From Sedimentibacter saalensis (lineage in GTDB: Bacteria > Bacillota > Clostridia > Tissierellales > Sedimentibacteraceae): DNA of 64,000 bases. A model generated the notes under the pieces. The model was not told the DNA's origin. It saw only the letters and a program-made list of their open reading frames with translations, and ran no database searches. Position numbers and translations under genes: made by a program. The stretch spans positions 372,001-436,000 of the forward strand of contig NZ_VLKH01000001.1 of NCBI RefSeq assembly GCF_007830175.1. The letters run 5' to 3'. Positions 12,330-38,439 of the stretch are shown here, piece after piece (the stretch's first letter is position 1; the number at the start of each line of letters is the position of its first letter).

Positions 12330-12503
12330 ATGGGTATGTCTCAGGAGGAGTTTAAAACCGCACTACTAAAGGATTATGCACAAATGAAAAGACAGAGAGA
12401 AAAGGAATACATGGATTACATGTCAATAGCCAAGTACAGGAGAAATCAGAAAAATTACAAAAAAAAGCTTATAAATATTGCAACGCTTTCAGCAAAACGG
12501 TAG
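12330..12503 (+). CDS. Small basic protein, paralogue of the ORF at 38260
   Basis: A 57-codon ORF with start MGMSQEEFKT and a strong AAGGGGG ribosome site, divergent from the PstS gene. It has no signal peptide. It is charged, helix-prone and rich in Lys, Arg and Tyr. It shares a clear pattern with the protein at 38260-38439: MGM-x-x-x-EFKTA, KD-x-A, KEY, Y-x-SI, YR, then a lysine-rich tail. I do not recognise the family. One copy is beside pstS and the other directly behind phoA, so a role in the phosphate response is a reasonable guess. A terminator follows at 12512. Confidence 0.82.
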   Translation: MGMSQEEFKTALLKDYAQMKRQREKEYMDYMSIAKYRRNQKNYKKKLINIATLSAKR

Positions 12504-12511
12504 TAAAAATT

Positions 12512-12532
12512 AAGGGGCCATAAATGGCCCTT
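12512..12532. terminator. Terminator between the small ORF and spl
   Basis: AAGGGGCCAT/ATGGCCCTT hairpin followed by CCTTATT, between two convergent genes. Confidence 0.7.
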
Positions 12533-12537
12533 CCTTA

Positions 12538-13557
12538 TTAAATGATATATTTGACTTCCTTGTTGCTGAAAAGATTTTCTATTTCTTCGGCAAAAAATCC
12601 CTTTATTTCATCCAGACTTTCCTTGGGATATACATACTTTCCATATCCGAACTGCCCATATTTAAACACGCGGTCTTCATCATTCATGGGCAGCTCATTA
12701 TGGGGGAAAATTTGAGCAATTCTATTTTTGGCAGTTGTTGTATACCTGTGTGATATAACTTCAAAGGTTACAGGGAACTTAAGACCGTCCGGCAGCCTGC
12801 TCCTTAGTTCCAACAACAAATCATGATATTCTTCCTTCCAGCCCTCATATATAAAAACAGGAGCAATGAGAAATCCAACAGGATACCCTGCCATGGAAGC
12901 CTTTATGCCGGCTTCTATTCTTTTATCACGGGAAGCTGTAAAGTGTTCATATTTGTTGATAACAGAAGAAGTGTTTATGCTGAACCTCATTTCAGTATGG
13001 CCATTGTGTTCCAGATTGAGCAAAGAATCTATGTCATTGTATTTTGTTACAAACCTGAATTTTGAATTTTCACTTTTTCCGAAAAATATTATTGATTTTT
13101 CCAAAGCATGAGTGTAAGGTTCCACAGGCACAGGGTCAGAAGTGGCTGCCCCTTCAAATACAGTTGTGTCAGGCACTCTTTCATCAATATATTTTTGTGC
13201 CTGATTTAAGATATCATCCACATTAACATGGACTTTCACATATGGTTTATCCCCAAGCATGGTGTTTAAGTAACAATACTCGCATTGTCCCATGCATCCG
13301 GAAACCAATGGAAGCTGGTAGTGTGCGGATGGTTTACATGTCTGAAACTTCAGACTTTTCTTTGTGCCAACAACCAGGGTTCTTTTTCCTTCCCCATATT
13401 GCGAAGCAAGGTCAACGCCTGGTATATGCTGTTTGAGCTTATTGGATGTAAGACTTATTATTTCAACATCTTTATCCTTAAACTCCTCATAAATATTTCT
13501 TGCAGCTTCAAAATCTAAAGAATCTTTCTCAAAAATTATCCTTTTGGGTTTGAACAT
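12538..13557 (-). CDS. splB: Spore photoproduct lyase (radical SAM), Cys donor replaced by Ala
   Basis: A 339-residue radical-SAM enzyme that splits the UV-induced spore photoproduct (5-thyminyl-5,6-dihydrothymine) in germinating spores. The cluster motif is Cys88, Cys92, Cys95 (CMGQCEYC). Spacing to the B. subtilis enzyme (Cys91/95/98) gives an offset of three, so Tyr94 and Tyr96 match its Tyr97 and Tyr99. The H-atom donor Cys141 should then be residue 138, but the segment reads FEGAATSD, with Ala138. No in-frame start is possible upstream because of a TGA two codons before the ATG. No ribosome site is visible. A repeat B copy lies just upstream. Confidence 0.9.
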   Translation of the reverse strand: MFKPKRIIFEKDSLDFEAARNIYEEFKDKDVEIISLTSNKLKQHIPGVDLASQYGEGKRTLVVGTKKSLKFQTCKPSAHYQLPLVSGCMGQCEYCYLNTMLGDKPYVKVHVNVDDILNQAQKYIDERVPDTTVFEGAATSDPVPVEPYTHALEKSIIFFGKSENSKFRFVTKYNDIDSLLNLEHNGHTEMRFSINTSSVINKYEHFTASRDKRIEAGIKASMAGYPVGFLIAPVFIYEGWKEEYHDLLLELRSRLPDGLKFPVTFEVISHRYTTTAKNRIAQIFPHNELPMNDEDRVFKYGQFGYGKYVYPKESLDEIKGFFAEEIENLFSNKEVKYII

Positions 13558-13568
13558 TTGTCATACAA

Positions 13569-13736
13569 AACAGTACGTTTTATTCAGACTATTTACAAAC
13601 CCTGACGCTGTCATCCTGAACGATAGTGAAGTATCTCATCATTATTGAAAACATGAGATTCTTCGGGCTACGCCCTCAGAATGACAACGTCGAAGGTTAC
13701 TTTGTCATCAACCTGTATTAAACGGTACGTTTTATT
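13569..13736. repeat. Direct repeats flanking repeat B copy 3
   Basis: AACAGTACGTTTTATT (13569-13584) and AACGGTACGTTTTATT (13721-13736) differ at one base and bracket the B element exactly, like a target duplication. Confidence 0.7.
13586..13713 (-). repeat. Repeat B, copy 3
   Basis: Same imperfect palindrome as copies 2 and 4 but in the opposite orientation: GTCATCCTGAACGATAGTGA through GGGCTACGCCCTCAGAATGAC, with the terminal GACTATTTACAAACCCTGACG also conserved. Confidence 0.87.
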
Positions 13737-13834
13737 TCCTCTTTTCTTCCGATATTTTATTCCTTTATTTTGCTTCCTGATGGAAACTTTATTCATATGA
13801 ATAGTCTCATATATCCAAAACAAACTCATGACAA

Positions 13835-14284
13835 TTATTTGTAATCTTTTGGAGTTCCCCAGTACTCAAATTTGTCGTATTGTGGTGTTGTAGAATCAAA
13901 ATGCACCCATATGGCAGCATCATCAAGTTCAGGATGTGCTTCAAAAAACTCCCTGTCTCCATATCTTATAGCTTCCAGTGCCAGAGGAAGCTCACGTCTG
14001 AAAATCATATTGCGTATTTCCGCAGCAATGGAACCAAACTGACCATTCACATATACATAAATATATAGGTATGTTCTTCCGTTATTATCCCTCCATTCCC
14101 CCAGTACTTCATCTCTCATTATCATGTTTATTTTATCATATGCATATTCCAGGCCTATTGTCAGAAACAATTCGGCAGTTATGTCAGAATGTGTTAAAGT
14201 ATAACGTCTATTTATTATTGGTTCTTCAGTTGTTACTCCCTGTCTAAATTCCACATTGAGTTTTTCAGGATTTAAATTTTCCAT
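13835..14284 (-). CDS. STAY-GREEN (SGR) family protein
   Basis: A 149-residue cytoplasmic protein resembling plant STAY-GREEN across its length: LNPEKLNVEFR at the start, TLTHSDITAELFLTIG, then RDEVLGEW, and FRRELPLALEAI..GDREFFEAHPELDDAAIWVHF. Plant SGR removes Mg from chlorophyll a. Bacterial relatives occur in organisms without chlorophyll, and their natural substrate is uncertain. There is no signal peptide and it is shorter than the plant proteins because the transit peptide and C-terminal Cys-rich tail are absent. The start has CTGGAGGAT. It stands alone between repeat B copy 3 and a sugar isomerase-like gene. Confidence 0.85.
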   Translation of the reverse strand: MENLNPEKLNVEFRQGVTTEEPIINRRYTLTHSDITAELFLTIGLEYAYDKINMIMRDEVLGEWRDNNGRTYLYIYVYVNGQFGSIAAEIRNMIFRRELPLALEAIRYGDREFFEAHPELDDAAIWVHFDSTTPQYDKFEYWGTPKDYK

Positions 14285-14398
14285 AATATCCTCCAGTCCT
14301 GCAATTGATAAACTGCAACAAATTAGTTTTACATTACAATATGAAATTAAAAATAAAAAAACACTTTAAGATACTTCTTAAAATGCTTTTAAATAAGT

Positions 14399-15163
14399 TT
14401 ACTTTTTCAGCCATCCGTTTTCATCAAGCCACTGAATGGATTCTCTGCATTCCTGATTTTCTACAGTGAAAGTGATATTTTCAGGAGAATTTTTTTTAAG
14501 TGCTTCCATTATTTTGTTCATGTCCATGCTGCCGTTTCCAAGAGACCAGTGGCAGTCATATGTTTTGTCGTTGTTGTGCAGGTGCACATGCCCAAGAAAC
14601 GGACCCAAGACTTCAATCCATTCTAACAAATCAATATCTGACTTACAGTGTGCATGGCCTATGTCAAGACATGCAGACACTCTTTTGTCTTTGATGCCTT
14701 CAATTATTTTTGCAAGAGTGTATGGTTCATCCTCCAGCACATTTTCTATCATAATGTGAAAATCATCCGTCTTGCTGCTCATGAATTTTTGCCAGAACTC
14801 AACTGATTTTTCTTGAAACCAGCTTTTGAAATACAACACAGGAACATACCCTGAATGCACAACCATTCTTTTTATTCCGTAACTGCCTGCAAGGTGGAAC
14901 GACTGCTCAAATCTTTTATTTGCAAGCTTAATTGCCAGCGGGTCCACTGCCGCAGGAAACAACTCATTGAAAGGAGCATGAAATATATGGCTGTGTGAAA
15001 TTTTCATCTTTTTTCTTACACTTAAATCCAATTCTTTAAAATTTTCATCATCCATGTTGGATGCGGTACAAAATTCGTCTATTTCTATTCCAAGTTCATA
15101 TTCTTCAGCAACATCGGCTGCATCTGATGCAACAGTTGCAACATAAAATTTGTCTGATTTCAT
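14399..15163 (-). CDS. Sugar phosphate isomerase/epimerase-like TIM-barrel protein
   Basis: A 254-residue protein of the xylose-isomerase-like/AP endonuclease family 2 fold. Metal-ligand-type motifs are visible in order: MVVHSGY, MIENV, CLDIGHAHC, GHVHLHNND and a late TVENQE. These enzymes isomerise or epimerise sugars, inositols or their phosphates, and some cut DNA; the substrate cannot be predicted. The start is the ATG at 15163 with an AGGAAGG site. A longer frame reaching 15229 is open but lacks a ribosome site. It has no obvious operon partner. Confidence 0.82.
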   Translation of the reverse strand: MKSDKFYVATVASDAADVAEEYELGIEIDEFCTASNMDDENFKELDLSVRKKMKISHSHIFHAPFNELFPAAVDPLAIKLANKRFEQSFHLAGSYGIKRMVVHSGYVPVLYFKSWFQEKSVEFWQKFMSSKTDDFHIMIENVLEDEPYTLAKIIEGIKDKRVSACLDIGHAHCKSDIDLLEWIEVLGPFLGHVHLHNNDKTYDCHWSLGNGSMDMNKIMEALKKNSPENITFTVENQECRESIQWLDENGWLKK

Positions 15164-15301
15164 ATATTTCCTTCCTGCTCCCATCCATTTTCCCTGCTGA
15201 CATAAAAATACAGTCTCCTTCGATAGCAATAATTATGCATGCGGAAACTGTATCAATTTTATCACATATATAAGTTTTTCACAAGAATTACAAAACTGTA
15301 A

Positions 15302-16162
15302 TCAATCCCCAAGTTCAAAACAACCTATTCCTATGAGCCCCGGGCCTGTGTGAACACCAAGGGAGGCAGAAATCTGACCTTCCATGAACAAAGCTGCATT
15401 ATCTATGAATGGTTTCATCTTTTCCTTTACCATGTCTGCTTCTTCCTTTGCAGATCCATGGCATATTGCGAGATAATAATTCTTCTTGTCCTTTATTATA
15501 TCCTGAACGATTTCCATCAGCTTGTTTATGCTTTGCTTTCTTCCGCGTACCTTTGCAACAGTGTAATAAATACCGTCATTGTCACATGCAATAATAGGCT
15601 TAATCTGAAGCATGCTTCCGATAATTCCTTCAACACGGCCAAGCCTTCCTCCCTTTATGAGGTATTGGAGTGTTTGAATGCTGTAATAAATGTGAGAATC
15701 CTTAATTTTACCCTCAACTTTTTTTATTATTTCTTCAAATACGAGATTTTTTTCTGCCAATTGAGCTGCATAAACAGCTAAGAAACCTGAGCCAAGGGCA
15801 ATGTTTTTTGTGTCAATTACTGCTGTCTTAATATTATGGAACTCACTGCAAACCTGTTTGATGGCATTATATGTACCGCTAAGCCCTGATGATATTACAG
15901 GAATAATCACATGAGTGTATCCGTCAGCAACTATTTTCTCAAGCGTTTCACGGATTTCTCCCAATGTTGGAAGGCTTGTGCTAGGAATTTCTTCTGTTAG
16001 TCTTTCATATACCTCTTCGGGAGTTATGTCGATTCTGTCCCTATAGGATTTATCCTTGTAATTAATGCCGAGTGAAAGTTGATAAATGTTGAATTTATCC
16101 AGCATATTCTGTGGAACATCTGATCCGGAATCTGTCAATACTGCTATTTTATTTTCGTTCAT
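15302..16162 (-). CDS. DegV-family fatty-acid-binding protein
   Basis: A 286-residue protein with the DegV signature: VLTDSGSDVP near the N-terminus, TSLPT, ISSGLSGTYN, IDTKNIALGSGF and a C-terminal GPGLIGIGCF. DegV (FakB-like) proteins bind fatty acids or acyl-phosphates. In FakAB systems they present the fatty acid to a kinase, but no FakA is nearby. The start has GTGAGGAG. It is the second gene behind the DUF1836 protein (12-base gap), a pairing I recall from other Firmicutes, and the two share a clear promoter/operator. Confidence 0.9.
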   Translation of the reverse strand: MNENKIAVLTDSGSDVPQNMLDKFNIYQLSLGINYKDKSYRDRIDITPEEVYERLTEEIPSTSLPTLGEIRETLEKIVADGYTHVIIPVISSGLSGTYNAIKQVCSEFHNIKTAVIDTKNIALGSGFLAVYAAQLAEKNLVFEEIIKKVEGKIKDSHIYYSIQTLQYLIKGGRLGRVEGIIGSMLQIKPIIACDNDGIYYTVAKVRGRKQSINKLMEIVQDIIKDKKNYYLAICHGSAKEEADMVKEKMKPFIDNAALFMEGQISASLGVHTGPGLIGIGCFELGD

Positions 16163-16174
16163 GTTTTCTCCTCA

Positions 16175-16726
16175 CTAAGGCTTAGAATTATAATTTTTTA
16201 TTTTTGTTTTTATTATTTTTTCAGTCAATAGCTTGTTTGATAAAGCTGTAGTAATTGAGGAAATTGCTAATCTGTCATATTCGATTTCTCTTTCTTCCAG
16301 AACATAGGTGTTTTTATCCACCGTTATCGGCTTAAATACCTTTCTTGTGGATTCTTCAAATGATTCAACAAAAGCATCATAGGCCCTTTCGTTGCCGTGC
16401 AGGGCAATCTGCAGCAGTATGCCGTCTTTTATTTCTGATATTGTCAATATTTGCTTAAGAAGGGTTATGACCATAACTTCTGCAATGTGCAGTTTGTCAT
16501 ATTTTTTCTTAACCGGTTTAGGAATCATACCCCACTTCACATAATTGTTCACCATGCTTTTTGTAAGGAGGTTCTCGTCATCAATCTGCATACTTGATAA
16601 TTCATCATTCACAATTTGTAAAAGCTGGTCGCAATATACCGGAAATTTCGGCAGGTCATTCCATTTGATGAGTTTTATTTCACTCATTTGTTTGCTGTAT
16701 TCATATAGTTCCAAGTTATCATCCAT
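16175..16726 (-). CDS. DUF1836 protein, probable MerR-like DNA-binding regulator
   Basis: A 183-residue DUF1836 protein. The stretch around residues 55-90 (MVNNYVKWGMIPKPVKKKY followed by HIAEVMVI) looks like the wing and helix of a MerR-type DNA-binding domain. No metal-binding or effector domain is recognised in the remainder. It is the first gene of an operon with degV, and the promoter carries a perfect 11-bp inverted repeat at the transcription start, so it may repress its own operon. That role is inferred from context; the family assignment is reasonably firm. Confidence 0.8.
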   Translation of the reverse strand: MDDNLELYEYSKQMSEIKLIKWNDLPKFPVYCDQLLQIVNDELSSMQIDDENLLTKSMVNNYVKWGMIPKPVKKKYDKLHIAEVMVITLLKQILTISEIKDGILLQIALHGNERAYDAFVESFEESTRKVFKPITVDKNTYVLEEREIEYDRLAISSITTALSNKLLTEKIIKTKIKNYNSKP

Positions 16727-16750
16727 ATTTTTTCCTTTATCGTTAACGAT

Positions 16751-16805
16751 TATATGTAGTTATAACAACTACATATATCATAGCGTAGACATGCATGGTT
16801 GTCAA
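16751..16805 (-). promoter_or_regulatory. Sigma-A promoter with palindromic operator for DUF1836-degV
   Basis: On the minus strand TTGACA (16805-16800), a 17-base spacer and TATGAT (16782-16777) make a near-consensus promoter. Immediately downstream lies TATATGTAGTT-N5-AACTACATATA (16751-16777), a perfect inverted repeat covering the expected start point. Confidence 0.8.
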
Positions 16806-16842
16806 GCATTCTTATTTAAATTTGACATCATTTTCCTCATTT

Positions 16843-16890
16843 AAAAAAGTTTCTCCGCAACTCCGCTAGGGGACCTATGTCCACCTTCGG
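16843..16890 (-). repeat. Repeat A, partial copy 3
   Basis: Matches the first ~48 bases of copies 1 and 2 (AAAAAAGTTTCTCCGCAACT, then CCGCTAGGGGACCTATGTCC) and then stops. It lies between a terminator and the next minus-strand promoter, the same context as the full copies. Confidence 0.75.
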
Positions 16891-16901
16891 AGTTAAAAAA
16901 G

Positions 16902-16920
16902 GCTCTGATTAACTCAGAGC
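16902..16920 (-). terminator. Terminator of the wall-binding-repeat gene
   Basis: GCTCTGA-TTAAC-TCAGAGC hairpin followed on the minus strand by CTTTTTTAA. Confidence 0.8.
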
Positions 16921-16956
16921 TGTGTAAGCTATTTACGATAAGAAGACTCAGTTTCT

Positions 16957-18084
16957 CTAATGTTCCATTTTTCCATCCACATCAAGCACCTTTTCAATTT
17001 CAACCTGCACATTATGCGTTATGTCATTGAAGCTTCCCAAGACATAGGAATGCATGTATGGAGGCATTGCCGGATTTTCCTTCTTGGGATTGACCCTTAC
17101 TACATATTCTGCAACAGCATCCGGAAGATAGTTTTTATCTGTAAGAAGAAGGGGTGTATGCTTGCCAAGATGAGCCAACAAATTTGCTGAAACAATGTTG
17201 TACCATCTCTTCAGTTCTCCGAATGCAAATGCCCACCCATCATTTGTGTTGTGTTTCCATCCAAAAGTATCAACTTCACTGGCATATTCCGAAAATTTAA
17301 CAGATATGGTATAAGGATTGCTTGCGCTGATTCTAATAACGTCTTTGTCTATTATTCCACTTATCTCTTCTTCCACCTTAGAGCCGACAGTTTTTTCACT
17401 TCCCAGAATATAGTAATTCTTATCCTTATTATCGTTTATGAAAATTCTGACAGGTTCCGGGACTATGTCTTGCTCTACCAATATTATTGGTGTACCTTTG
17501 TGTGCTGCATAAAATGAAGCTGTTATTCCTTCGCTGTAATCCTGACCTGATATTACTATGATGTCCTTTCTACCTTCTTCTGATGCTGACGGAATTATAT
17601 TTAGTCTGAAATCTGCTGTTTCAACGCATGATTCATATACATCCTCGGTATCAGTTATTCTGTAGACAGTCAGTCCTGCCATTTTCAGAATATTTTCAAC
17701 TGCGCGTGAAACAGGGCCTGCAATTAGCACCTGGGCAGGAACCTCATTGCCTGTGGGGCCCATTCTTTGTATTTCCTTTATTGATATTTCAGGCAGATAA
17801 TTTCTTTCAGTAAACATTATGGGGGCATTAATGGGAAAATGAACAACACTGGAAGCACAAAGAGAATACTGCCACTTATCACCGGGAACAAGTATAACAG
17901 CATTAGGCTTCCAATTAATATTTCGACTTGGATATATCATTTTTGTCATTGCTATGTTGAAGCTGTACATGTCTTCATGATTTATCCTGGTGGTATTTAC
18001 TGTGTTTTGTTCTTCTGTATCTGCTTGTCTAGGTTCAGGCATGAGCCTTACACACCCGGATTTCGGATTGAAAAATTGCTGCAT
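16957..18084 (-). CDS. Cell-wall-binding repeat 2 (PF04122-like) protein without signal peptide
   Basis: A 375-residue protein built of repeated units resembling cell-wall-binding repeat 2: ILVPGDKWQYSLCAS with PIMFTERNYLP, VLIAGPVSRAVENIL, VISGQDYSEGITAS with YYILGSEKTVGSKVEEEI, and a final segment with PLLLTDKNYLP and SYVLGSFNDI. In surface proteins these repeats anchor to anionic wall polymers, but this protein begins MQQFFNPKSGC with no export signal or membrane segment, so it may be cytoplasmic or exported by another route. The start has AAGGAG. Its exact role is unknown. It is followed by its own terminator. Confidence 0.75.
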   Translation of the reverse strand: MQQFFNPKSGCVRLMPEPRQADTEEQNTVNTTRINHEDMYSFNIAMTKMIYPSRNINWKPNAVILVPGDKWQYSLCASSVVHFPINAPIMFTERNYLPEISIKEIQRMGPTGNEVPAQVLIAGPVSRAVENILKMAGLTVYRITDTEDVYESCVETADFRLNIIPSASEEGRKDIIVISGQDYSEGITASFYAAHKGTPIILVEQDIVPEPVRIFINDNKDKNYYILGSEKTVGSKVEEEISGIIDKDVIRISASNPYTISVKFSEYASEVDTFGWKHNTNDGWAFAFGELKRWYNIVSANLLAHLGKHTPLLLTDKNYLPDAVAEYVVRVNPKKENPAMPPYMHSYVLGSFNDITHNVQVEIEKVLDVDGKMEH

Positions 18085-18201
18085 GTTTTTTCTCCTTCCA
18101 ATAGTAATTTATATAATATATTCGCTTGTTGTGTCTTCGTGAACATTTATATTCCATCAATCTGATGCAAGAAATTGAAAAATCTGCAGATAAGCAATAA
18201 A

Positions 18202-18230
18202 AAAGCCCTAAACATAATGTTCAGAGCTTT
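18202..18230 (-). terminator. Terminator of the small exported-protein gene
   Basis: AAAGCTCTGAACAT/ATGTTTAGGGCTTT stem with G-T pairs, followed on the minus strand by TTTTTTATTG. Confidence 0.78.
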
Positions 18231-18243
18231 AAACTTTAAAGGA

Positions 18244-18429
18244 TTATTCTGCACACACTTCTGCTTTAGCGCACTCAGAAACTCCCTTATCCATTGTTCT
18301 TGCACATTCAGCCACTGACTGTCCGCCTTTGTTCACTGCCATCTCTGACACCATGTTGACTGCATATGCCTGTTTTGTCGATCCAAGAACAATTATTGAA
18401 GCTACAAATATATATAATAATTTTTTCAT
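18244..18429 (-). CDS. Small exported protein, function unknown
   Basis: A 61-residue protein with a textbook signal peptide (MKKLLYIFVASIIVLGST, cleavage likely after AYA) and a mature part of about 38 residues that contains three Cys and repeats an ECA motif (AECARTMDKG, SECAKAEVCAE). I do not recognise it. The AAGGAGG ribosome site and own terminator support a real gene. The paired Cys could form a disulfide or bind a metal once secreted. It stands alone, divergent from the MDR dehydrogenase. Confidence 0.75.
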   Translation of the reverse strand: MKKLLYIFVASIIVLGSTKQAYAVNMVSEMAVNKGGQSVAECARTMDKGVSECAKAEVCAE

Positions 18430-18554
18430 TTTATTTCCTCCTTTTTTATTTTATTGTACATAACAAATGTGAAGAATTTATGTATATTTTTAATTTTTAT
18501 GTTGAACTTAAATATAATGGGTATAAGAGTAATAAAACATAAAGGAGTATTCAT

Positions 18555-19550
18555 ATGAAAGCAATGGTAATAAATAAAACTGGCGGCCCGGATGTTTTTG
18601 AAATGATGGATATAAAAAAGCCGGAAGTAAAATCAGGCTATGTCCTGGTCAAAGTCTTGGCCAGCAGCTTGAATCCTCTGGAAACTAAAATAAGATCCGG
18701 CCTCACACCGGCAATTATACCACCATTTCCCGCAGTTCTGAATGCAGACTTTTCAGGAGTTGTGGAACAAGTGGGCGAAGGCGTCACAAACTTTAAAGAA
18801 GGAGATGAAGTTTTCGGTTATGTGGGAGGAGTCAAGGATGAATGGGGTTCCCTTGCAGAATATACATTGGTTGACAAGGACTTGATGAGCCTCAAGCCTA
18901 AGAATGTTGACTTCAAAACTGCTGCAATGTTTCCATTGGTAAGTTTGACTGCCTGGAAAGCAATTATTGATAAATCAAATATCAAGATACATGACAAAGT
19001 ATTGATTCACGGAGCAGCCGGAGGAGTTGGGCATATGGCTGTCCAATTTGCAAATCTTTTAGGTGCAGAAGTATATGCAACTGTATCAGGAGACGAAAAA
19101 GGTGAAATTGCTAAAAAGTTCGGAGCAGCACACGTAATCAACTACAAGGAAACACCTGTTGAGCAATATGTAAATGAATATACAGGCGGAAGAGGTTTTG
19201 ATTTTGTATTTGACACTATCGGAGGAAATAATCTTCTCAACAGCTTCAAGGCTGTAAAAATTGACGGAACAATTTGTACAACAAATACCAGAGTTACACT
19301 TGACTTATCGCTTATGCACAGCAAAGCTATAGGGCTTAAAGCATTATTCATTGTCCTGCCGATTTTAACCAACACAAACAGAACTGAAATAGGAACAACA
19401 TTAAATGAAGTTAAAAAACTCATAGAAGCAGAAAAAATCAGCATATTGAAAGATAAAAACCAATTCGTGTTTTCTGAAATAACAAAGGCTCATGAGTATT
19501 ACGAATCAGGCATAGCGACCGGCAAAATTTCTCTGGTAAGTGACTTATAA
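18555..19550 (+). CDS. Zinc-independent MDR oxidoreductase (quinone oxidoreductase-like)
   Basis: A 331-residue medium-chain dehydrogenase/reductase. The GroES-like catalytic half is N-terminal (SSLNPLETKIRSG, NADFSGVVEQVG, GDEVFGYVGG) and the Rossmann half carries the nucleotide motif HGAAGGVGHMAVQFA, typical of NADPH-dependent quinone or enone reductases. The Cys/His ligands of zinc alcohol dehydrogenases are absent. The probable role is reduction of quinones, enals or enones; the substrate is unknown. The ribosome site AAAGGAG is 8 bases before the ATG. It is monocistronic and ends at a hairpin pair flanking repeat B copy 4. Confidence 0.88.
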   Translation: MKAMVINKTGGPDVFEMMDIKKPEVKSGYVLVKVLASSLNPLETKIRSGLTPAIIPPFPAVLNADFSGVVEQVGEGVTNFKEGDEVFGYVGGVKDEWGSLAEYTLVDKDLMSLKPKNVDFKTAAMFPLVSLTAWKAIIDKSNIKIHDKVLIHGAAGGVGHMAVQFANLLGAEVYATVSGDEKGEIAKKFGAAHVINYKETPVEQYVNEYTGGRGFDFVFDTIGGNNLLNSFKAVKIDGTICTTNTRVTLDLSLMHSKAIGLKALFIVLPILTNTNRTEIGTTLNEVKKLIEAEKISILKDKNQFVFSEITKAHEYYESGIATGKISLVSDL

Positions 19551-19620
19551 TACACAAGTATTCATTTTAACATCAACATGACGAATTTCCTGCTCTTTGC
19601 AGAAGAAGACTTAATTAAAA

Positions 19621-19640
19621 ACAGCACCCTCGGGTGCTGT
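19621..19640 (+). terminator. Hairpin left of repeat B copy 4
   Basis: ACAGCACCC-TC-GGGTGCTGT; stem shared with the hairpin at 19772 on the other side of the repeat. Confidence 0.65.
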
Positions 19641-19643
19641 CAG

Positions 19644-19769
19644 TTTGATGACAAAGTAAAATTTGGACGTTGTCATTCTGAGGCGCAGCCGAAAAATCTC
19701 ATGTTTTCAACAAAGATGAGATCCTTCACTACCGTTCAGGATGACAACGTCGGAGTTTGTCAATAGTCT
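19644..19769 (+). repeat. Repeat B, copy 4
   Basis: Imperfect palindrome (GTCATTCTGAGGCGCAGCCG ... CGTTCAGGATGAC) with conserved ends TGATGACAAAGT and TTTGTCAATAGTCTG. It lies between two hairpins that share the ACAGCACC/GGTGCTGT stem. Confidence 0.87.
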
Positions 19770-19771
19770 GA

Positions 19772-19801: not shown

Positions 19802-19802
19802 G

Positions 19803-30729: not shown

Positions 30730-30771
30730 ATGCATTTAAATATGCCATCTATAAAAAAATGTAATAGATTA

Positions 30772-31644
30772 CTACGCAAACAATTGCATGAGTTTATTAA
30801 TTGATGGGTTTTTTTGATCCTTTTTCCATATGCACAAAAGGCCAAAATTTTCTTTGCTGTCTGATACAGGAATTAATTTAAATTCTTCTTGATCAACAAC
30901 TGCAAGTTTACAGGATGCAAATCCCAAAGCGTTATGTAAAATTGACAAAGTCATTATATCTCCCATTTTCTTACCGTAAGCCACAAATTCCGGTTTAAAC
31001 CCATTCTTTTCACAAACCATAGAATGAGAATCATTTATTAACGGTGTTTCATCCGGACACCATCCAATAAATTTCTGATTTTTCAAATCATTAAAGTTAA
31101 CAAAATTACGATGAAACAGTTCGTTTTTATTAGGTATAAGTACATAAAGCTGACTTTTCTGCAATTTGAATGAATTAAAATTATTAAAACTCGTTATGGA
31201 AGCCTCAGGAATAATGGCCATATCAATTTCATCTGACATTAGTTTTTCGTTTGTTCTTGCCAAAGAATCATATTCCGTTTCTATCTTTATTGTATTACTG
31301 TTTGGTATTTGACTTAATTTTTTATTGAATACTGCTAAATGACCGTATATAACATATCCGATTTTGACAGGGTTTTTGAATTGCTGATTGGCATTAGTTA
31401 CTTTTTCAACCAATGCATCACAATGTTTTATTATTTTTTTTGCTTCAGCCAGACAAACTTTTCCCTCCTCAGTTAATTCAACAGAACGGCTGTTCCGTTC
31501 AAATAATCTGCATCCTAATTCATTTTCAAGTTCGGATATTGAACGGCTTAGCGCTGGCTGTGTAATGAAACATTCTTCTGCTGACCTGGTATAGCTCTTC
31601 GTTCCAGCTAAATTTACAAAATATTTTAATGATTGCAGTTTCAT
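30772..31644 (-). CDS. LysR-family transcriptional regulator
   Basis: A 290-residue LysR regulator. Residues 1-60 form the winged helix (LKYFVNLAGTKSYTRSAEE, with QPALSRSISELENELG and LFERNSR), and ~90-290 a periplasmic-binding-protein-like effector domain. The start is the ATG at 31644 after AGGAGC. The next gene in the same direction, 123 bases on, is the two-FMN-domain surface reductase, the probable target. The upstream region carries TTGACAT-N9-ATGTCAA, a likely autoregulatory site. Confidence 0.9.
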   Translation of the reverse strand: MKLQSLKYFVNLAGTKSYTRSAEECFITQPALSRSISELENELGCRLFERNSRSVELTEEGKVCLAEAKKIIKHCDALVEKVTNANQQFKNPVKIGYVIYGHLAVFNKKLSQIPNSNTIKIETEYDSLARTNEKLMSDEIDMAIIPEASITSFNNFNSFKLQKSQLYVLIPNKNELFHRNFVNFNDLKNQKFIGWCPDETPLINDSHSMVCEKNGFKPEFVAYGKKMGDIMTLSILHNALGFASCKLAVVDQEEFKLIPVSDSKENFGLLCIWKKDQKNPSINKLMQLFA

Positions 31645-31699
31645 GTTAGTAGCTCCTGATGTTATCATTATTTGTTAGCTATATCACAAACTATTATAG

Positions 31700-31722
31700 T
31701 TGACATTAGGAGCTCATGTCAA
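31700..31722. promoter_or_regulatory. Operator-like inverted repeat before the LysR gene
   Basis: TTGACAT-N9-ATGTCAA, perfect 7-bp arms centred on GAGCT, about 56 bases before the LysR start. Confidence 0.55.
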
Positions 31723-31787
31723 CGAATCCTTGTTAATAATGCTAAAATTTACAAGTAATTATTCCCGCTTATCATTAAAATAAAAAA

Positions 31788-31834
31788 ATAACCGCATCAG
31801 ATTCCGGAGCCCTTTGCAGTCTGACACAGTTATT
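31788..31834 (-). terminator. Terminator of the metal uptake operon
   Basis: AATAAC/GTTATT outer and TCAGA/TCTGA inner pairing, followed on the minus strand by TTTTTTTATT, shortly after the lipoprotein stop codon. Confidence 0.75.
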
Positions 31835-31848
31835 TAATATTATATCTA

Positions 31849-32412
31849 TCACTTGATGGTTATTCCATCTGCTTTCAGATAGTAATATGTATTTCCTGAT
31901 TCTTCATAAGAACTAAATACACCTGTTATTTCTATTACAGTATTATCCTTTGGATACTCATCCGGATAAACATGGCTGTTGTCATCCCATATGAATTCTA
32001 TACCATTTTGGCAGCATGCTGTAGCATCACTGATAACGACAAAATGATAATACTTTTCTGTCCCATATACTAATTGGCCTGCATAATATGGCCCGATAAC
32101 CTTTATGGTCTTTCCCAAATATACATCTGGATTGACCATCATATTATATACTTCCGAATAAACCATGGTGCTGCTTAACACAGTCAAATCAACGTCAACA
32201 TCATTTATATCTTTTGTTTCTTCTATATCTGTTTCATTCTTTTCATCATTGTCTTGCAATTTACTTTCCACTTCAGCTGTGCCCTGTATAGTGCCATCTT
32301 GTTTATTTGCTATCTCTTCCACCATACTTGTATCTTTTCCGCATGCGGACATAACCATAGTCAAAATCAATATTATGCATGATGCTATTGTTTTTTTCAC
32401 TATTATTGACAT
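31849..32412 (-). CDS. Accessory lipoprotein of the metal uptake operon
   Basis: A 187-residue lipoprotein (signal peptide ending MSACGK). After an acidic linker the C-terminal ~110 residues look like an OB-fold-type domain (NPDVYLGKTIKVIGPYY, FVVISDATACC, IEITGVFSSYEE). The double Cys could bind a metal. The start is the ATG at 32412 following AGCAGGAGGAA; it overlaps the permease stop by 10 bases, implying translational coupling. A function in metal capture at the surface is inferred only from its operon. Confidence 0.75.
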   Translation of the reverse strand: MSIIVKKTIASCIILILTMVMSACGKDTSMVEEIANKQDGTIQGTAEVESKLQDNDEKNETDIEETKDINDVDVDLTVLSSTMVYSEVYNMMVNPDVYLGKTIKVIGPYYAGQLVYGTEKYYHFVVISDATACCQNGIEFIWDDNSHVYPDEYPKDNTVIEITGVFSSYEESGNTYYYLKADGITIK

Positions 32413-33263
32413 TGTATCATTCCTCCTGCTAACTTTTCTATTGTGCAAAATATAAAAAACACTAAAATATCAATTGCAACAATTGTGGAACCTACGGGTG
32501 TAGAAGCTAGAATTGATATAATAATTCCACTACCAGCGGCAATTACAGAAATAACCGCTGAACACAATATGACTGCACTGAAATTTTTAAATACTCTCAT
32601 GGCGGATAATGCCGGAAAAATAATAAGTGCAGATATTAGCAAGGAACCCACCAGATTCATTGCAAGCACAATGATAATTGCTGTAATAACAGCAATTATG
32701 AGATTATAAAAACCTGTATTCGTACCGGTTGCCTGGGAAAATGTCTCATCAAATGTAATTGCTAAAATTTTATTGTAAAACAAAAGGAAGGAAATCACCA
32801 CAACAATGGACATAATAACACATAGCCATACTTCAGCCATAGTTAAAGTTAGTATGGATGTTGACCCAAAAAGAGTGCTGCAAACATCGCCCGATATGTT
32901 AGAAGACTTTGAAAAAAGATTCATGAGTAGGTAACCAATTGCTAATGTACCCACTGATATCATGGCAAGTGAGGCATCTCCATTAATTTTTTTATTCTGT
33001 CCGCTTTTTAGCAATAGCACGGCTGATATGATAGTCACAGGCATTACAATAACAGCATCATTTGTAAGTCCGAATACAGAGGCAACAGCCATTCCCCCGA
33101 AAGCCACGTGAGAAAGCCCATCTCCAATGAAAGAAAACCTCTTCAATACCAATGTTACTCCAAGCAATGAAGAACAAAGCGCTATCAATACACCTACAAT
33201 CATCGCATACCTAACAAATGGAAATGTAAAATAATGCAATAAAGTACCTGTAATTCCATTCAT
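32403..33263 (-). CDS. Zinc/manganese-type ABC transporter permease
   Basis: A 286-residue integral membrane protein of the ZnuB/MntB/TroC family with about eight or nine membrane segments. The motif RFSFIGDGLSHVAFGGMAVA is characteristic of this ABC-3 permease family. It pairs with the ATPase at 33260 (ATGA overlap) and the binding lipoprotein at 34031 to import a divalent metal, most likely Zn or Mn. The start has GGGAGGAATAA. Confidence 0.92.
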   Translation of the reverse strand: MNGITGTLLHYFTFPFVRYAMIVGVLIALCSSLLGVTLVLKRFSFIGDGLSHVAFGGMAVASVFGLTNDAVIVMPVTIISAVLLLKSGQNKKINGDASLAMISVGTLAIGYLLMNLFSKSSNISGDVCSTLFGSTSILTLTMAEVWLCVIMSIVVVISFLLFYNKILAITFDETFSQATGTNTGFYNLIIAVITAIIIVLAMNLVGSLLISALIIFPALSAMRVFKNFSAVILCSAVISVIAAGSGIIISILASTPVGSTIVAIDILVFFIFCTIEKLAGGMIQCQ

Positions 33264-33973
33264 TTGCTTATTCCTCCCTGAATATTTGTTTGAAACCCCT
33301 TACCGCTTATCACATATTCTTCTTTCTTTCCAAAAAACAGAGGAATATTGCTAACATGCAGAATATGTGTTGCATACTTCACTGTTGCTTCTATATCATG
33401 TGATACCATAACAACTGTAATGCCATCCTTTTTATTCAATCTATAGATCAATTCATACATTTCATTGGTTACTTTAGGATCAAGTCCAGCCACTGGCTCA
33501 TCCAAAAGAAGCATCTTCTTTGTTGCACACAATGCCCTTGCAAGTAAAACTCTTTGCTGCTGACCTCCTGACAGTTCCCTATAACATTTTTTCGACAGAT
33601 TGCTGATTCCAAGTCTTTCCATATTTTCCACTGCCAACTGTTTCTCTTCTCTGGTATAAAACGGTCTCAGGCCGCATCTGTTCAAGCAGCCTGACAATAC
33701 AATCTCCCATACAGATGCAGGAAAATCCTTCTGAACCACCGTCTGTTGTGGAAGATATCCTATTTCTGTTGGTTTCAGTCCATCACCTACAGTAATTTGC
33801 CCGGAGACAGGCGATTTCAGGTTAAGAAGTGCCTTTATGAGAGTACTTTTTCCTGCACCATTCTCACCAATAATACATAAATAATCTCCCTCATTTATTT
33901 CAAAATTCAAATGTTCTGTTACAATACTACCTTCATATCCCAGCGAAACATCATTACAGATAATCTGAGCCAT
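33260..33973 (-). CDS. Zinc/manganese-type ABC transporter ATP-binding protein
   Basis: A 237-residue ABC ATPase. Walker A is GENGAGKST, the signature LSGGQQQR, Walker B MLLLDEPVAGLD and the switch His is in VSHD. It energises the metal permease encoded next, whose start codon overlaps this gene's stop. Length and motifs match ZnuC/MntB-type ATPases. The ribosome site AAGAGGT is 8 bases upstream of ATG. Confidence 0.93.
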   Translation of the reverse strand: MAQIICNDVSLGYEGSIVTEHLNFEINEGDYLCIIGENGAGKSTLIKALLNLKSPVSGQITVGDGLKPTEIGYLPQQTVVQKDFPASVWEIVLSGCLNRCGLRPFYTREEKQLAVENMERLGISNLSKKCYRELSGGQQQRVLLARALCATKKMLLLDEPVAGLDPKVTNEMYELIYRLNKKDGITVVMVSHDIEATVKYATHILHVSNIPLFFGKKEEYVISGKGFQTNIQGGISK

Positions 33974-34030
33974 AATAAAACCTCTTTTCTTGTTGTCTAT
34001 ATTAATTATAATGCTTTAAAATCAATAATT

Positions 34031-35020
34031 CTAATTCAATGCTTCTTTTAGTATCGCTAAATTACTTTCCATAATGGAAATATAATTTGTACCATTTACT
34101 ACATCTTGTGATGTAACAGATTGCATAGAATTCATAACAAGAATTTTCTGGTTTTTACTCTTTGTATTATTGACAACAGTCTGTGCTATTGATTTGTCTG
34201 AACTTTCAATTACGCAAATTGACGAAAGATCAAGTTCATCCATTTTTTCTGATAGAAATAAGATAGTTCCAAAGCTTGCCTCTGTTTCAGCAGAGCAACC
34301 TAAAAAAGCAGCATAATAATCAAGTCCGTAATCATCAACCATGTAACGAAATGGGAACCTGTCTCCAAACAATACAGTTGAACGCACTGAATTATCCACT
34401 GTTTTTTTGTAGTCCGAATCAAGTGCTGACAGTCTATCTATGTAAGTCTCTAAGTTTTTCTTATAATACTCACTATTATCTGCATCAAGTGTTGAAATAG
34501 AAGTACAGATTGAATTACATATCAACTGTGCATTTTTAAGAGAAAGCCATACATGCTCGTCATACTCAATCTCTTCACCATGACCTTCTTCAGCTTCTTC
34601 AACTTCCATTCCTTCAGTTACTTCTTCTTCTTTAGCAGAATCCCCAATTACCTCAATTAAGTTAATTACCTGCATTTCTTTGTTCGTTGCTTCTGCCAGA
34701 GCATCTTCTACCCACCCATCTGACTCACCGCCAACATAGATGAATACATCACAACCTGCAATTTTTGAAATATCTTCCGCTGTAGGCTGATAGCTGTGAA
34801 GATCCATACCATCATCCAATAAAAGTGTAAGATTAATGTGGTCTGCCTTATCTCCAATTATCTCTCTCACCCAGTCATATTGCGGAAAAGTAGTACATAC
34901 AACACTTAACTTGTCAGAATTGTCACCTTTTGATGAACCACTTCCAGATGCTTTACTGCATCCAAACAAAGTGCACATGCAAACGCAAAGCACCAGTACA
35001 ATTATTAAATTCTTCTTCAT
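34031..35020 (-). CDS. Metal-binding lipoprotein of ABC transporter (ZnuA-like)
   Basis: A 329-residue substrate-binding lipoprotein (lipobox LFGCSK). Metal ligands of the ZnuA/TroA family are visible: His in DLHSYQPTAEDI, His in YDEHVWLSL, and the later FGDRFPFRYM and ESSDKS regions. A short acidic stretch with a single His (EEAEEGHGEEIEYDEH) sits where ZnuA proteins often have a His-rich loop. The start is the ATG at 35020 after AGGAGGTA. It binds Zn or Mn outside the membrane for the permease downstream. Confidence 0.9.
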   Translation of the reverse strand: MKKNLIIVLVLCVCMCTLFGCSKASGSGSSKGDNSDKLSVVCTTFPQYDWVREIIGDKADHINLTLLLDDGMDLHSYQPTAEDISKIAGCDVFIYVGGESDGWVEDALAEATNKEMQVINLIEVIGDSAKEEEVTEGMEVEEAEEGHGEEIEYDEHVWLSLKNAQLICNSICTSISTLDADNSEYYKKNLETYIDRLSALDSDYKKTVDNSVRSTVLFGDRFPFRYMVDDYGLDYYAAFLGCSAETEASFGTILFLSEKMDELDLSSICVIESSDKSIAQTVVNNTKSKNQKILVMNSMQSVTSQDVVNGTNYISIMESNLAILKEALN

Positions 35021-35125
35021 TTTTAATACCTCCTGAATTAACAACATTAAAATATCTAAAACCAATTTTTGAGTACATAAACATCACCAGATATATACCT
35101 GGTGTAAACAGTCATTCCTCGTAAG

Positions 35126-35425
35126 TTAATTCAGAAGTTCTACTTTCAATGATATTAAAGTTATGCCTGAATGGCAAATGACATCCTCAGAGGGACAAAT
35201 AGATAATGCTGTAACAAAGACTATTAATGCATATAATGCTGCAATAATAAAAATTTTAGAAATGTTTATATTATGAATTGAAAACCCAATTTGTGCGCAA
35301 ATATGGCAATCCACTCCGATACATTCATGATTCATATGACCTGCTATGTAAAAAAAGGAAGTAACCGGTACGAATAATAAGGCAATACATAAAATAAGTA
35401 ATAATATTTTTTTACTTCTTTTCAT
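35126..35425 (-). CDS. Small membrane protein with Cys/His loop, first gene of metal operon
   Basis: A 99-residue protein with two hydrophobic segments (residues ~7-28 and ~53-75) and a loop HMNHECIGVDCHICAQI whose His and Cys residues could bind zinc. Similar small proteins appear before zinc uptake genes in other Firmicutes as I recall. It could sense or hand over metal; this is inference. The start follows AAAGGAGTGG. It is the promoter-proximal gene of the operon, with a palindrome in its leader. Confidence 0.75.
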   Translation of the reverse strand: MKRSKKILLLILCIALLFVPVTSFFYIAGHMNHECIGVDCHICAQIGFSIHNINISKIFIIAALYALIVFVTALSICPSEDVICHSGITLISLKVELLN

Positions 35426-35451
35426 ACCACCACTCCTTTCTGCTATATAAG

Positions 35452-35546
35452 AATATGTCTCATTAAAGAAACATATTACTCTGAAAGATATGAATTTTAA
35501 ATGCAGATTTACTGTATATTATAATGTTATATTAAATACTTGTCAA
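35452..35546 (-). promoter_or_regulatory. Promoter and operator-like palindrome of the metal operon
   Basis: Minus strand TTGACA (35546-35541), 17-base spacer, TATAAT (35523-35518). Downstream, AATATGTCTC-N6-GAAACATATT (35452-35477) is an almost perfect 10-bp inverted repeat in the leader, a candidate site for a Fur- or MntR-type metalloregulator not encoded here. Confidence 0.65.
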
Positions 35547-35593
35547 ACAGTAGATATCATCTTCCCCTGCGTAATGAGCATATGACATATATT

Positions 35594-35637
35594 AAATATA
35601 AAGACTAAGCAAATTAGTTTGCTTTGTCTTTATATTT
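35594..35637 (-). terminator. Long hairpin downstream of the HD gene
   Basis: AAATATAAAGAC/GTCTTTATATTT perfect 12-bp outer stem with an inner GCAAA/TTTGC stem. T-run on the minus strand is weak. Confidence 0.6.
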
Positions 35638-35675
35638 TGGAGGATTACTTGTTATTTCTTTATATTTTTAATTAC

Positions 35676-36335
35676 TTATAAAAGCTCCACTTCATTTATG
35701 ACTAGTTTAAATCTCAGTTTTAAATAGTCCGCAGCCTTTCTGCAAAGCAGCATTCTTCCTAAAAATATTTCAAAATAGTCCATAACTGCGCATATTTTTG
35801 TATCTATCGTCAAGTTCAGCACTATTTCATTATTTTCTACATTTAATATAAGGTTTGATTTTTCCACAGAATAATTGACTCTGTCATGTATGTCAAAAGT
35901 TGAAAAATCTCTGTTCCTTACTCTTGAACGGCGCACATCACTTTTATCTGCCAATATTAATGCTGAGGCAACTTCATTTACAGGAACTGCCGTAGACTCA
36001 TCATGATTGCCTACAGCTGAAATAATTGTTGCAATTTCAGCCACATCCATACCCATATTATCCAATATTCGAAATGCCATTATTGCTCCTGTCTGAGCAT
36101 GATCTATTCTGTTCACAACATTGCCAATATCATGCATGTAGCCGGCAATGCTTGCAAGTTCCGTGGTTCTTTCATCATACCCAAGTTTTTCAAGTATGTC
36201 CTTTGCCTCACTTGCTGTCTTAGTAACATGAGCTAATGAATGCTCTGTATATCCTAAAGCAGCAAGTGAATCATCCGCTTTTTTAATATATGTGTTTATT
36301 TCTTTGCTGTTTTTTATGTCTTCAAAATTAATCAT
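35676..36335 (-). CDS. HD-domain phosphohydrolase
   Basis: A 219-residue cytoplasmic HD protein. The metal motif is spread over SLAHVTK, GYMHDIGN, DHAQTG and GNHDE with a final ILADKSD, matching the H...HD...D pattern. HD proteins hydrolyse nucleotides, phosphoesters or second messengers; the substrate is not predictable. The C-terminal ~70 residues are a strand-rich extension. The start has GAAAGGAT. It is divergent from phoA. Confidence 0.85.
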   Translation of the reverse strand: MINFEDIKNSKEINTYIKKADDSLAALGYTEHSLAHVTKTASEAKDILEKLGYDERTTELASIAGYMHDIGNVVNRIDHAQTGAIMAFRILDNMGMDVAEIATIISAVGNHDESTAVPVNEVASALILADKSDVRRSRVRNRDFSTFDIHDRVNYSVEKSNLILNVENNEIVLNLTIDTKICAVMDYFEIFLGRMLLCRKAADYLKLRFKLVINEVELL

Positions 36336-36483
36336 AATTTAATCCTTTCAACTAATATTTTATAAATTTAATATAAAGTTGAATTGTATAAACAAATCCA
36401 GCTTATGGTAAAAACAAAGTAAAATTGCTTATTTTCATAGTCTTTCTGCAAAAATCAAAAAAATTCAATTAACATAAGCATCC

Positions 36484-36548
36484 TTTACCAATAAAAAACA
36501 TATTTTTTACAGCCATGCCTAAGTCATTTTACAAACTGCCTATATAAT
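36484..36548 (+). promoter_or_regulatory. Candidate Pho boxes and -10 of the alkaline phosphatase gene
   Basis: TTTACC (36484), AAAACA (36495), TTTACA (36506) and TTTACA (36528) fall in 11-bp register, as PhoP direct repeats do, and TATAAT is at 36543-36548. No good -35 hexamer is present, as expected for an activated promoter. Confidence 0.55.
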
Positions 36549-36577
36549 TGCATTAATTACAATATTAGGAGGAAATT

Positions 36578-38209
36578 ATGAAGTTAAACAGAATTATAAG
36601 CGGGTTGCTGGCAGCGGCAATGACATTTACAATGACAGAAAGCGTACTGGCGGCAGGTATAAATGATGTACATGTTCAAAATGAAGTAAAAAATGTTATT
36701 TTGCTCATACCTGACGGAATGAGTACCGGCGCACTGACATTGTCAAGATGGTACAATGGAGGAAATGAACTTAATTTGGACAGTATGGCATCAGGTCTGG
36801 TCAGAACTTATTCTTCCGATGCTCCCATAGCAGATTCAGCACCTGCAGGAACAGCAATGGCAACAGGATATAAATCACATACAGGGTTTGTTGGAGTATT
36901 GCCTGATGTAAATTCAATGCCCGGTCTTGAGCAACTAAATCCAGATGATAAAAGAAAACCTGTGGCAACAATACTTGAAGCAGCGCAGCTTGACGGGAAG
37001 GCAACAGGAATAATAGCAACAAGCGAAATAATGCATGCAACACCTGCTGATTTTACAGCACATGACCCAAGCAGAAAAAACTATGATTCAATTTCTGAAC
37101 AGCAGGTTTATCAGGAACTTAATGTAGTAATTGGTTCAGGTTCAAAATTTTTCGCTGAAGAAAACAGAAAAGACAATGAAGATCTTATTGCTGAAATAAA
37201 GAAAAATTATCAGTACGTTACTTCTCCAGCTGAACTGAGAAATATAACTAAAGGAAATCTTTGGGCAATGTTTGCTCCTTCAGCATTAGCTTATGATTTT
37301 GACCGCGACCCAGCAAAAGAACCTTCCATTGAAGAAATGACTAAAAAAGCAATTGAACTTTTGTCTCAGGATGAAGATGGATTCTTTCTGATGGTTGAAG
37401 GAAGCAAGGTTGACTGGGCAGCCCATGCAAATGACCCTATAGGCGTAATTTCTGATGTACTGGCATTTGACAAGGCCGTGGGTGCAGCACTGGATTTTGC
37501 AAAGGCTGACGGAAATACACTTGTAATTGCAGCAACTGACCATGGAAACAGCGGAATATCAATAGGAAACAGTTCAACTGACAACAGCTATGACAAAACA
37601 CCTCTCTCAGCATTCATCAATCCTTTAAAACGCGCTTCATTAACCGGTGAAGGAATTGCTTCAAAGCTTAATGCTGATCGTTCAAATGTAGCAGAAGTTA
37701 TGTCACAATACTACGGAATTAATGATTTGACAGCTGAAGAAATTGAAGCAATAAAAAATACCGAGGACGGAGATATGAATTATTCTGTAGGTCCTATGAT
37801 CGGCAAAAGAGCAAATATAGGATTTACAACAAAAGGCCATACCGGAGAAGATGTGACTCTTTATGTATATGCACCTGCAAACATAAGCCAACTGACAGGT
37901 ACAGTTGAGAACACTGATATCGCAGTATATATGGAAAAAGCAATGGGTTTGGACTTAGATCAGGCAACTGACAGGCTCTTTGTGAAAGCAAGAGATGTTT
38001 TCGAATCAAAAGGAGCAAAGGTTGAATTTAATAATTCAGATGTTAACAATCCCGTGTTTATAGTTGAAAAAGACAACATTAAAATTGAAATGCCGATAAA
38101 CAAAAACATAGCATATGTTAATGGAAAAGCAGTTAAACTCGATGGTGTGGTAGTTTTTAACGGAATAAACGTATATGTGCCTCAAAGTGCTGCAGACTTA
38201 ATAAAATAA
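36578..38209 (+). CDS. phoA: Alkaline phosphatase, secreted, with C-terminal Cu-amine-oxidase-like module
   Basis: A 543-residue exported phosphomonoesterase. A signal peptide (residues 1-26) ends VLAAG. Asp46 in IPDGMS is a metal ligand, and Ser87 in ADSAPAGTAMATG is the expected nucleophile. Further metal-site motifs are DFTAHDPS, MVEGSKVDWAAHAND, AATDHGNSG and TKGHTGED. The last ~65 residues (IEMPINKNIAYVNGK...GINVYVPQSAADLI) resemble the copper-amine-oxidase N-terminal-like module also present in the glucosaminidase at 4653. It releases phosphate outside the cell. It has a strong TTAGGAGGA site and likely Pho control. Confidence 0.93.
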   Translation: MKLNRIISGLLAAAMTFTMTESVLAAGINDVHVQNEVKNVILLIPDGMSTGALTLSRWYNGGNELNLDSMASGLVRTYSSDAPIADSAPAGTAMATGYKSHTGFVGVLPDVNSMPGLEQLNPDDKRKPVATILEAAQLDGKATGIIATSEIMHATPADFTAHDPSRKNYDSISEQQVYQELNVVIGSGSKFFAEENRKDNEDLIAEIKKNYQYVTSPAELRNITKGNLWAMFAPSALAYDFDRDPAKEPSIEEMTKKAIELLSQDEDGFFLMVEGSKVDWAAHANDPIGVISDVLAFDKAVGAALDFAKADGNTLVIAATDHGNSGISIGNSSTDNSYDKTPLSAFINPLKRASLTGEGIASKLNADRSNVAEVMSQYYGINDLTAEEIEAIKNTEDGDMNYSVGPMIGKRANIGFTTKGHTGEDVTLYVYAPANISQLTGTVENTDIAVYMEKAMGLDLDQATDRLFVKARDVFESKGAKVEFNNSDVNNPVFIVEKDNIKIEMPINKNIAYVNGKAVKLDGVVVFNGINVYVPQSAADLIK

Positions 38210-38259
38210 CAAAATATCTTAGATATCAGCAATTACAATAATAAAATATGGAGGATAAT

Positions 38260-38439
38260 ATGGGCATGACACATGATGAATTTAAAACTGCTTTTATGAA
38301 AGATCTGGCAGATAGAAAAAAGCAGCAGGACAAGGAGTATGACAACTACTACTCAATTGTGATGTACAGAGTTAAAAAAAGCAAAAATACTTTTAAAAAA
38401 ACAAGGATTTCAACAATGTACCAGGCCGAAAACTTCTGA
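38260..38439 (+). CDS. Small basic protein, paralogue of the ORF at 12330
   Basis: A 59-residue protein beginning MGMTHDEFKTAFMKDLADRK; the centre reads KEYDNYYSIVMYRVKK and the tail is lysine-rich. It shares about half its positions with the product of 12330-12503, including EFKTA, KEY and YR. There is no signal or membrane segment. The ribosome site TGGAGG lies inside a slightly longer open frame, so the ATG at 38260 is used. It starts 50 bases after phoA and is probably co-transcribed with it. The function is unknown; two copies, both beside phosphate genes, point to phosphate metabolism. Confidence 0.82.
   Translation: MGMTHDEFKTAFMKDLADRKKQQDKEYDNYYSIVMYRVKKSKNTFKKTRISTMYQAENF

Follow-up and report, generated by a model that had tools for sequence, protein, structure and literature searches.

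Genes A and B are two small open reading frames (ORFs) in a stretch of 64,000 nucleotides of Sedimentibacter saalensis DNA (contig NZ_VLKH01000001.1, positions 372,001 to 436,000), here called the window. Gene A is divergent from a stand-alone gene for a PstS-type lipoprotein, and gene B lies directly behind phoA, the alkaline phosphatase gene (Table 1). Translation of both ORFs gave 57 codons for A and 59 for B. These sizes and coordinates had been put forward in a first-pass annotation made from the DNA sequence, as had the divergence of A from pstS and the start of B 50 bases past the phoA stop, and all of them proved correct.

Table 1. Features of the A and B loci, in window coordinates
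Feature	Position	Strand	Description
PstS-type lipoprotein, stand-alone, halves permuted	11201..12094	-	PBP_like_2 / TIGR02136
Pho box of pstS	12141..12179	-	ATTACA, TTTACA, third weak, TTTACT at 11-base period; 85 bases before start codon
Conserved leader/promoter block of A	12261..12311	+	50/51 bases identical in G008 (alignment count); no Pho box on + strand
Small protein A	12330..12503	+	57 aa, pI 10.05, GRAVY -1.19; divergent from pstS
Hairpin 3' of A	12513..12532	+	common to convergent gene; weak T tail on + strand; scan lists - strand
Pho-type box of phoA	36495..36533	+	AAAACA-N5-TTTACA-N5-GCCTAA-N5-TTTACA, then TATATAAT; block conserved in 3 genomes
phoA, alkaline phosphatase with C-terminal Cu_amine_oxidN1 domain	36578..38209	+	Alk_phosphatase match
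phoA-B spacer, 50 bases	38210..38259	+	holds B ribosome site; without Pho box or strong hairpin (-2.7 kcal/mol)
Small protein B	38260..38439	+	59 aa, pI 9.56; single helix predicted, residues 5-58
Hairpin and T run 3' of B	38473..38516	+	similar one 3' of B in G008

The two proteins were compared by BLASTP of the pair, which aligned their N-terminal parts with 21/37 identical residues (E 3e-14). Their local alignment score was 121, while 5000 shuffles gave a mean of 29.4 (standard deviation 5.6) and a maximum of 61. The kinship of A and B is far beyond chance. This result, with isoelectric points (pI) of 9.56-10.05, bears out the earlier description of A and B as clearly related basic small proteins, and all of the motifs said to be common to them (MGM-x-x-x-EFKTA, KEY, Y-x-SI and YR) are present.

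Relatives were sought in a sample of 25 Sedimentibacter genomes, our own (G000) included, several of which are incomplete. Strong matches were obtained in 3/25 genomes, G000, G008 and G022, which carry two, three and one family genes, respectively, the last on two contig ends. Gene A of the window differs from its G008 orthologue at 18 bases, 12/18 of them in third positions, and in 5 residues. Random placement of these differences would be expected to change 13.5 residues, and 0/5000 simulations were as low as observed. The same simulation applied to B indicated residue conservation between G008 and G022 (0/5000 as low) and between the window and G022 (P 0.0012), and was borderline and non-significant between the window and G008 (P 0.065). 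These substitution patterns indicate that A and B are real coding genes, mostly under clear purifying selection. Ribosome sites can be read directly in the sequence before A (AAGGGGG) and B (GGAGG), and hairpins form 3' of both genes in short folds (-12.8 kcal/mol for A, -19.9 kcal/mol for B). The strong ribosome sites proposed earlier are therefore present. The terminators proposed with them fared less well, as the terminator scan lists neither on the + strand and the T tail of A is weak.

The small proteins are basic (pI 9.6 to 10.1) and very hydrophilic, with a grand average of hydropathy (GRAVY) of -1.19, and they have no evident signal or membrane stretch. AlphaFold2 on five sequences predicted one long helix, with a predicted local distance difference test (pLDDT) score of 82 and a predicted template modelling (pTM) score of 0.42. 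Residues 1-37 are the most conserved part and are also intact in the third G008 copy.

The distribution of the family is narrow. Of the genus genomes with completeness of 90% or more and contamination of 5% or less, 1/11 carries it. Larger samples of the order, class and phylum, which overlap, yielded matches in 6/249 order genomes (E 0.01), in 1/391 class genomes (our own genome) and in 2/398 phylum genomes. The six order genomes comprise the three strong ones and three others that match weakly and in part (E 0.0016 to 0.0097). These three were read as chance; one has in-frame stops and another lies inside a 450-codon frame. The second phylum match was partial (E 2.6e-4), lay inside a 145-codon frame and was not credited. 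Two low matches elsewhere in our own genome were dismissed (E 0.08 and 0.66), one with an in-frame stop and the other inside a 533-codon frame. A scan of genome contigs returned 4 loci, all within G008 and G022. The five members scanned matched 0 Pfam families at E 10, no PADLOC family matches A or B, and NCBIfam and the PDB gave no credible match for the small proteins; a TatA match in NCBIfam (E 0.11) and the best PDB sequence match (E 0.083) were dismissed. These searches suggest that the family is lineage-restricted and confined to three related genomes.

The one weak lead among the profiles was phrog_28972 (63 positions, unknown function), which matched 2/4 scanned proteins, B (E 4.8e-4) and its G008 orthologue (E 1.9e-3), almost collinearly from residue 3. 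The family could on this evidence be phage-derived and have a phage-related role. However, neither of the scanned A-type proteins matches the profile, which matches two other order genomes equally weakly and with in-frame stops. No relative was recovered from phages (tblastn, E 10), from three scans of viral contigs or from plasmids (B tested), and Pfam found no phage genes among the scanned neighbors. A phage origin is very improbable.

All 6/6 family genes seen in the three genomes adjoin phoA or a stand-alone pstS. Gene A adjoins pstS in G000 and G008. In G022 no verdict on gene A is possible, as the match to the neighboring spore photoproduct lyase gene stops at residue 276 of 339, where a contig end seems to truncate it. 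Gene B is directly downstream of phoA in the same direction at about 50 bases in 3/3 genomes, and the third G008 copy adjoins a second pstS. An orthologue of this phoA (93-94% identical) is present in the same 3/25 genus genomes as the small family and in no others. Relatives of pstS, by contrast, are present in 24/25, so the family tracks this phoA, not pstS. Two other genus genomes, G017 and G023, have only a 37%-identical phoA relative. Inspection by eye of 26 pstS loci, the family's own included, and 2 phoA loci gave no further small relative, either behind the phoA of G017 and G023 or before other genus pstS genes; absence is weak at L033 and L056 (G021) and L057 (G012), where about 330 bases or less lie upstream. 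No literature was found on Sedimentibacter and phosphate starvation, or on a small protein downstream of phoA in connection with phosphate.

A Pho box for the genus was built from a training set of 16 further pstS promoters, including that of the pst operon of G022 (L059). The loci under test (L030, L031, L032 and L054) were left out of training, as were L044 (same promoter as L043), L033 and L056 (short upstream), L047-L049 (unscanned) and other, partial or more distant pstS entries. The genus Pho box is TTTACA-N5-TTTACA-N5-N6-N5-TTTAC with an 11-base period, and lies 81-95 bases before the start, as set, in 13/16 training promoters. This 11-base repeat matches the way the Pho box is defined in an excerpt of PMC4415409. 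The box before pstS of the window has one mismatch and ranks top in the window with the 39-base matrix and second with the 17-base matrix. The operon of our own genome that encodes a permuted PstS, two permeases, an ABC ATPase, PhoU, a response regulator and a histidine kinase has a Pho box with 0 mismatches. With up to one mismatch there are three matches in the genome, these two and one before a gene that resembles a HAD-type hydrolase, a label taken from a reading of its first residues. Since the pattern with up to two mismatches gave 11 matches genome-wide and 8 in a reversed control, two-mismatch matches are no evidence.

The box before phoA has repeats at 0, 11 and 33, the spacing of the pstS box, and its 17-base matrix score of 10.7 is seventh in the window. 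By matrix scan of the spacer, B has no such box of its own. Because the gap is 50 bases and holds no strong hairpin, we infer that B is co-transcribed with phoA; the negative terminator scan is weak in this respect, as it also missed the hairpin of B itself. On this sequence evidence B plausibly belongs to the Pho regulon via the phoA promoter.

The leader of A is different. Its conservation between the window and G008 is evidence of some control of its own, and it has no Pho box. A scan for sigma-70 promoters found none in the conserved leader and a single 9/12 match further up (12119-12148). The leader holds CATATAGT, which resembles the sigma-E -10 consensus, and A is convergent with the spore photoproduct lyase gene. 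Gene A could thus belong to another programme, for example sporulation, with B the only Pho-controlled member. Against this, the promoter resemblance is low in information, and the spore photoproduct lyase was not found in G008 (E 1e-20) although A is present there. We consider separate control of this kind unlikely. As a side observation, the leader also contains TACGACAA (12289-12296), one base from the Spo0A box; the resemblance could be chance.

The third G008 copy (L011:4027-4227, - strand) is preceded by the promoter and ribosome-site block found before phoA, phoA itself is missing, and the small gene lies directly behind. At the matching place in G022, the small gene and phoA are divergent from a pstS (pstS'). 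One clade (support 92/97, under the strict threshold of 95/80) unites the pstS genes linked to A and to B with a pstS of G021. The small-gene copies of G000 all fall inside 26 kb, and those of G008 inside 33 kb. Local duplication of a unit of small gene, phoA and pstS, followed by later losses, is probably the simplest history. The same layouts, clade and short distances would be expected if the small gene was a hitch-hiker, present by chance in the ancestral unit, scattered by duplication and loss of phoA, and with a function unrelated to phosphate. Several observations argue in the other direction. Over codons 1-46 the third copy has four differences from its G008 sister, 4/4 of them at third positions and none changing a residue, despite the absence of phoA. 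B lies behind phoA in 3/3 genomes. The region upstream of A, past the pstS promoter, has no BLAST match to the phoA-type promoter of the third copy. We regard the hitch-hiker history as rather unlikely, though the strongest of the alternatives. The third copy may be a trimmed working gene or a gene in early decay.

Four known systems invite comparison. In E. coli, phoA-psiF is a PhoB-activated operon, according to an excerpt of PMC10294691. Like psiF, B is a small gene directly behind phoA (3/3 genomes). The present proteins have no Pfam match at E 10 and so no detected homology to PsiF, whose repeat domain is a Pfam family. PsiF is longer than the present proteins and exported, whereas A and B are very hydrophilic throughout. 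FbpA, FbpB and FbpC of Bacillus subtilis, of 54, 48 and 29 aa, have been proposed to act as RNA chaperones, although their RNA binding is yet to be confirmed, according to an excerpt of PMC8464778. A and B share with them very small size, basic charge and a likely place among the genes of nutrient starvation, but FbpA-C belong to the iron/Fur regulon, not to phosphate. No match to the FbpB profile was found for 5/5 members (Pfam, E 10), and no partner small RNA is known for A or B. PhoU-type accessory regulators (PhoU, PitR and the NptA domain) are encoded beside phosphate uptake genes, according to an excerpt of PMC13170248. The genes for A and B likewise adjoin phosphate uptake genes, but the PhoU of this genome has 215 aa (L065:11999-12643) and the small proteins have no PhoU match. 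phrog_28972 is likewise a small protein with a near-collinear weak match to B, and differs in that it does not match A and no phage relative was recovered. By analogy, then, the family resembles psiF in position and FbpA-C in size and charge, and by profile it is a member of neither family.

These results tentatively suggest, at somewhat less than an even chance, that A and B are young, lineage-restricted basic helical proteins, probably cytoplasmic, with an accessory part in the phosphate-starvation response of a few Sedimentibacter genomes. B would be produced via the Pho-type promoter of phoA when PhoP-PhoR is active. A would be produced under related conditions, even though its own leader lacks a Pho box. 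Membership of B in the Pho regulon is much more likely than this reading as a whole. The proteins are basic and hydrophilic, form a single predicted helix and lack an evident signal or membrane stretch. A cytoplasmic binder of RNA or protein, made in phosphate starvation, would fit best, by analogy with FbpA-C. Each would be a small binder, most likely either of RNA, as proposed for FbpA-C of Bacillus when iron is scarce, or of a protein partner, and binding would occur through the conserved N-terminal helix (residues 1-37). This binding mechanism is less likely than the reading as a whole. In its most ambitious form, which we think improbable, the proposal would make A and B members of a new class of very small helical Pho-regulon effectors, made together with alkaline phosphatase, that tune phosphate sparing by binding RNA or a Pho protein. 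They would parallel, for phosphate, the iron-sparing Fbp proteins, and the small gene would have been retained on its own under a Pho promoter where phoA was lost.

A number of observations weigh against a phosphate-starvation role. The phoA box scores 3.3 (G008), 6.1 (G022) and under 1.5 (window) with the 39-base matrix, compared with at least 32.2 in the pstS training set, and the region before the third G008 copy scores -3.1. Because of these low scores, the promoter claim for phoA and the third copy rests on spacing and conservation. The best upstream score for A on its own strand is -4.0 in the window and -0.9 in G008, compared with the training minimum of 32.2. The family was undetected in 22/25 genus genomes. 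The C-terminus of the third copy is frameshifted relative to its G008 sister, and gene conversion with the sister could also explain its unchanged codons 1-46. Since one ancestral unit of small gene, phoA and pstS explains the placements, they are probably not independent evidence. Pfam (E 10) revealed no kinship of the proteins with RNA-binding or regulatory families.

The first-pass annotation had tied the family to phosphate genes. The tie holds in so far as all six genes adjoin phoA or pstS and no homologue lies away from phosphate genes in the three genomes. It is weakened by placements that look like local duplication, by the lack of a Pho box of its own before A and by the many genus genomes in which the family was not detected.

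Other features of the window and genome were noted in passing. The window PstS scores 191.9 with TIGR02136, short of the curated cut-off (206.6), as would fit its permuted halves. Both this PstS and the operon PstS of the same genome (C7, L065:8590-9468) have their halves permuted relative to most PstS structures. The permuted PstS is collinear over residues 40-297 with the PstS2 entry 4h1x, and forms two swapped pieces against others such as 4gd5. Near-full-length collinear PstS relatives occur in 18/25 genus genomes, as counted from the match list. A Pho-type box at 39667-39705 (+), before a chemoreceptor gene (39740-41557), has 39-base scores of 12.7, 8.8 and 10.8, much lower than those of the pstS set, and with a TTTATATT -10 it is conserved before the receptor in all three genomes. 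The chemoreceptor near phoA is possibly under phosphate control. The second-best 39-base score in the window (16.6) is at 36385-36423 (-), 88 bases before an HD-domain gene (35676-36335) that is divergent from phoA. Beside B, an EAL-domain gene (38630-39520, -) has 296 codons, compared with 593 codons including CBS and GGDEF domains in its G008 counterpart (L011:12852-14633); the window copy lacks the C-terminal part. A Clostridiales-2 small RNA (RF02937) at 4229-4317 (-) is just above the gathering score. The gene at 13835-14284 (-) encodes a protein of the Staygreen family (PF12638, E 1.9e-62), which is named for plant chlorophyll breakdown.

Little is understood of what small Pho-regulon genes such as psiF do, and annotation easily overlooks proteins under 60 aa. 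The present family offers a concrete test case: its orthologues are clear, it has a candidate promoter, and in G008 there is a natural experiment, with phoA missing and the small gene kept under its promoter. Because the family is restricted to three genomes of one genus, its wider importance is limited. For Sedimentibacter, the sequences point to a small unnamed family whose genes, as seen so far, lie beside phosphate-scavenging genes, and one of which is probably switched on together with alkaline phosphatase.

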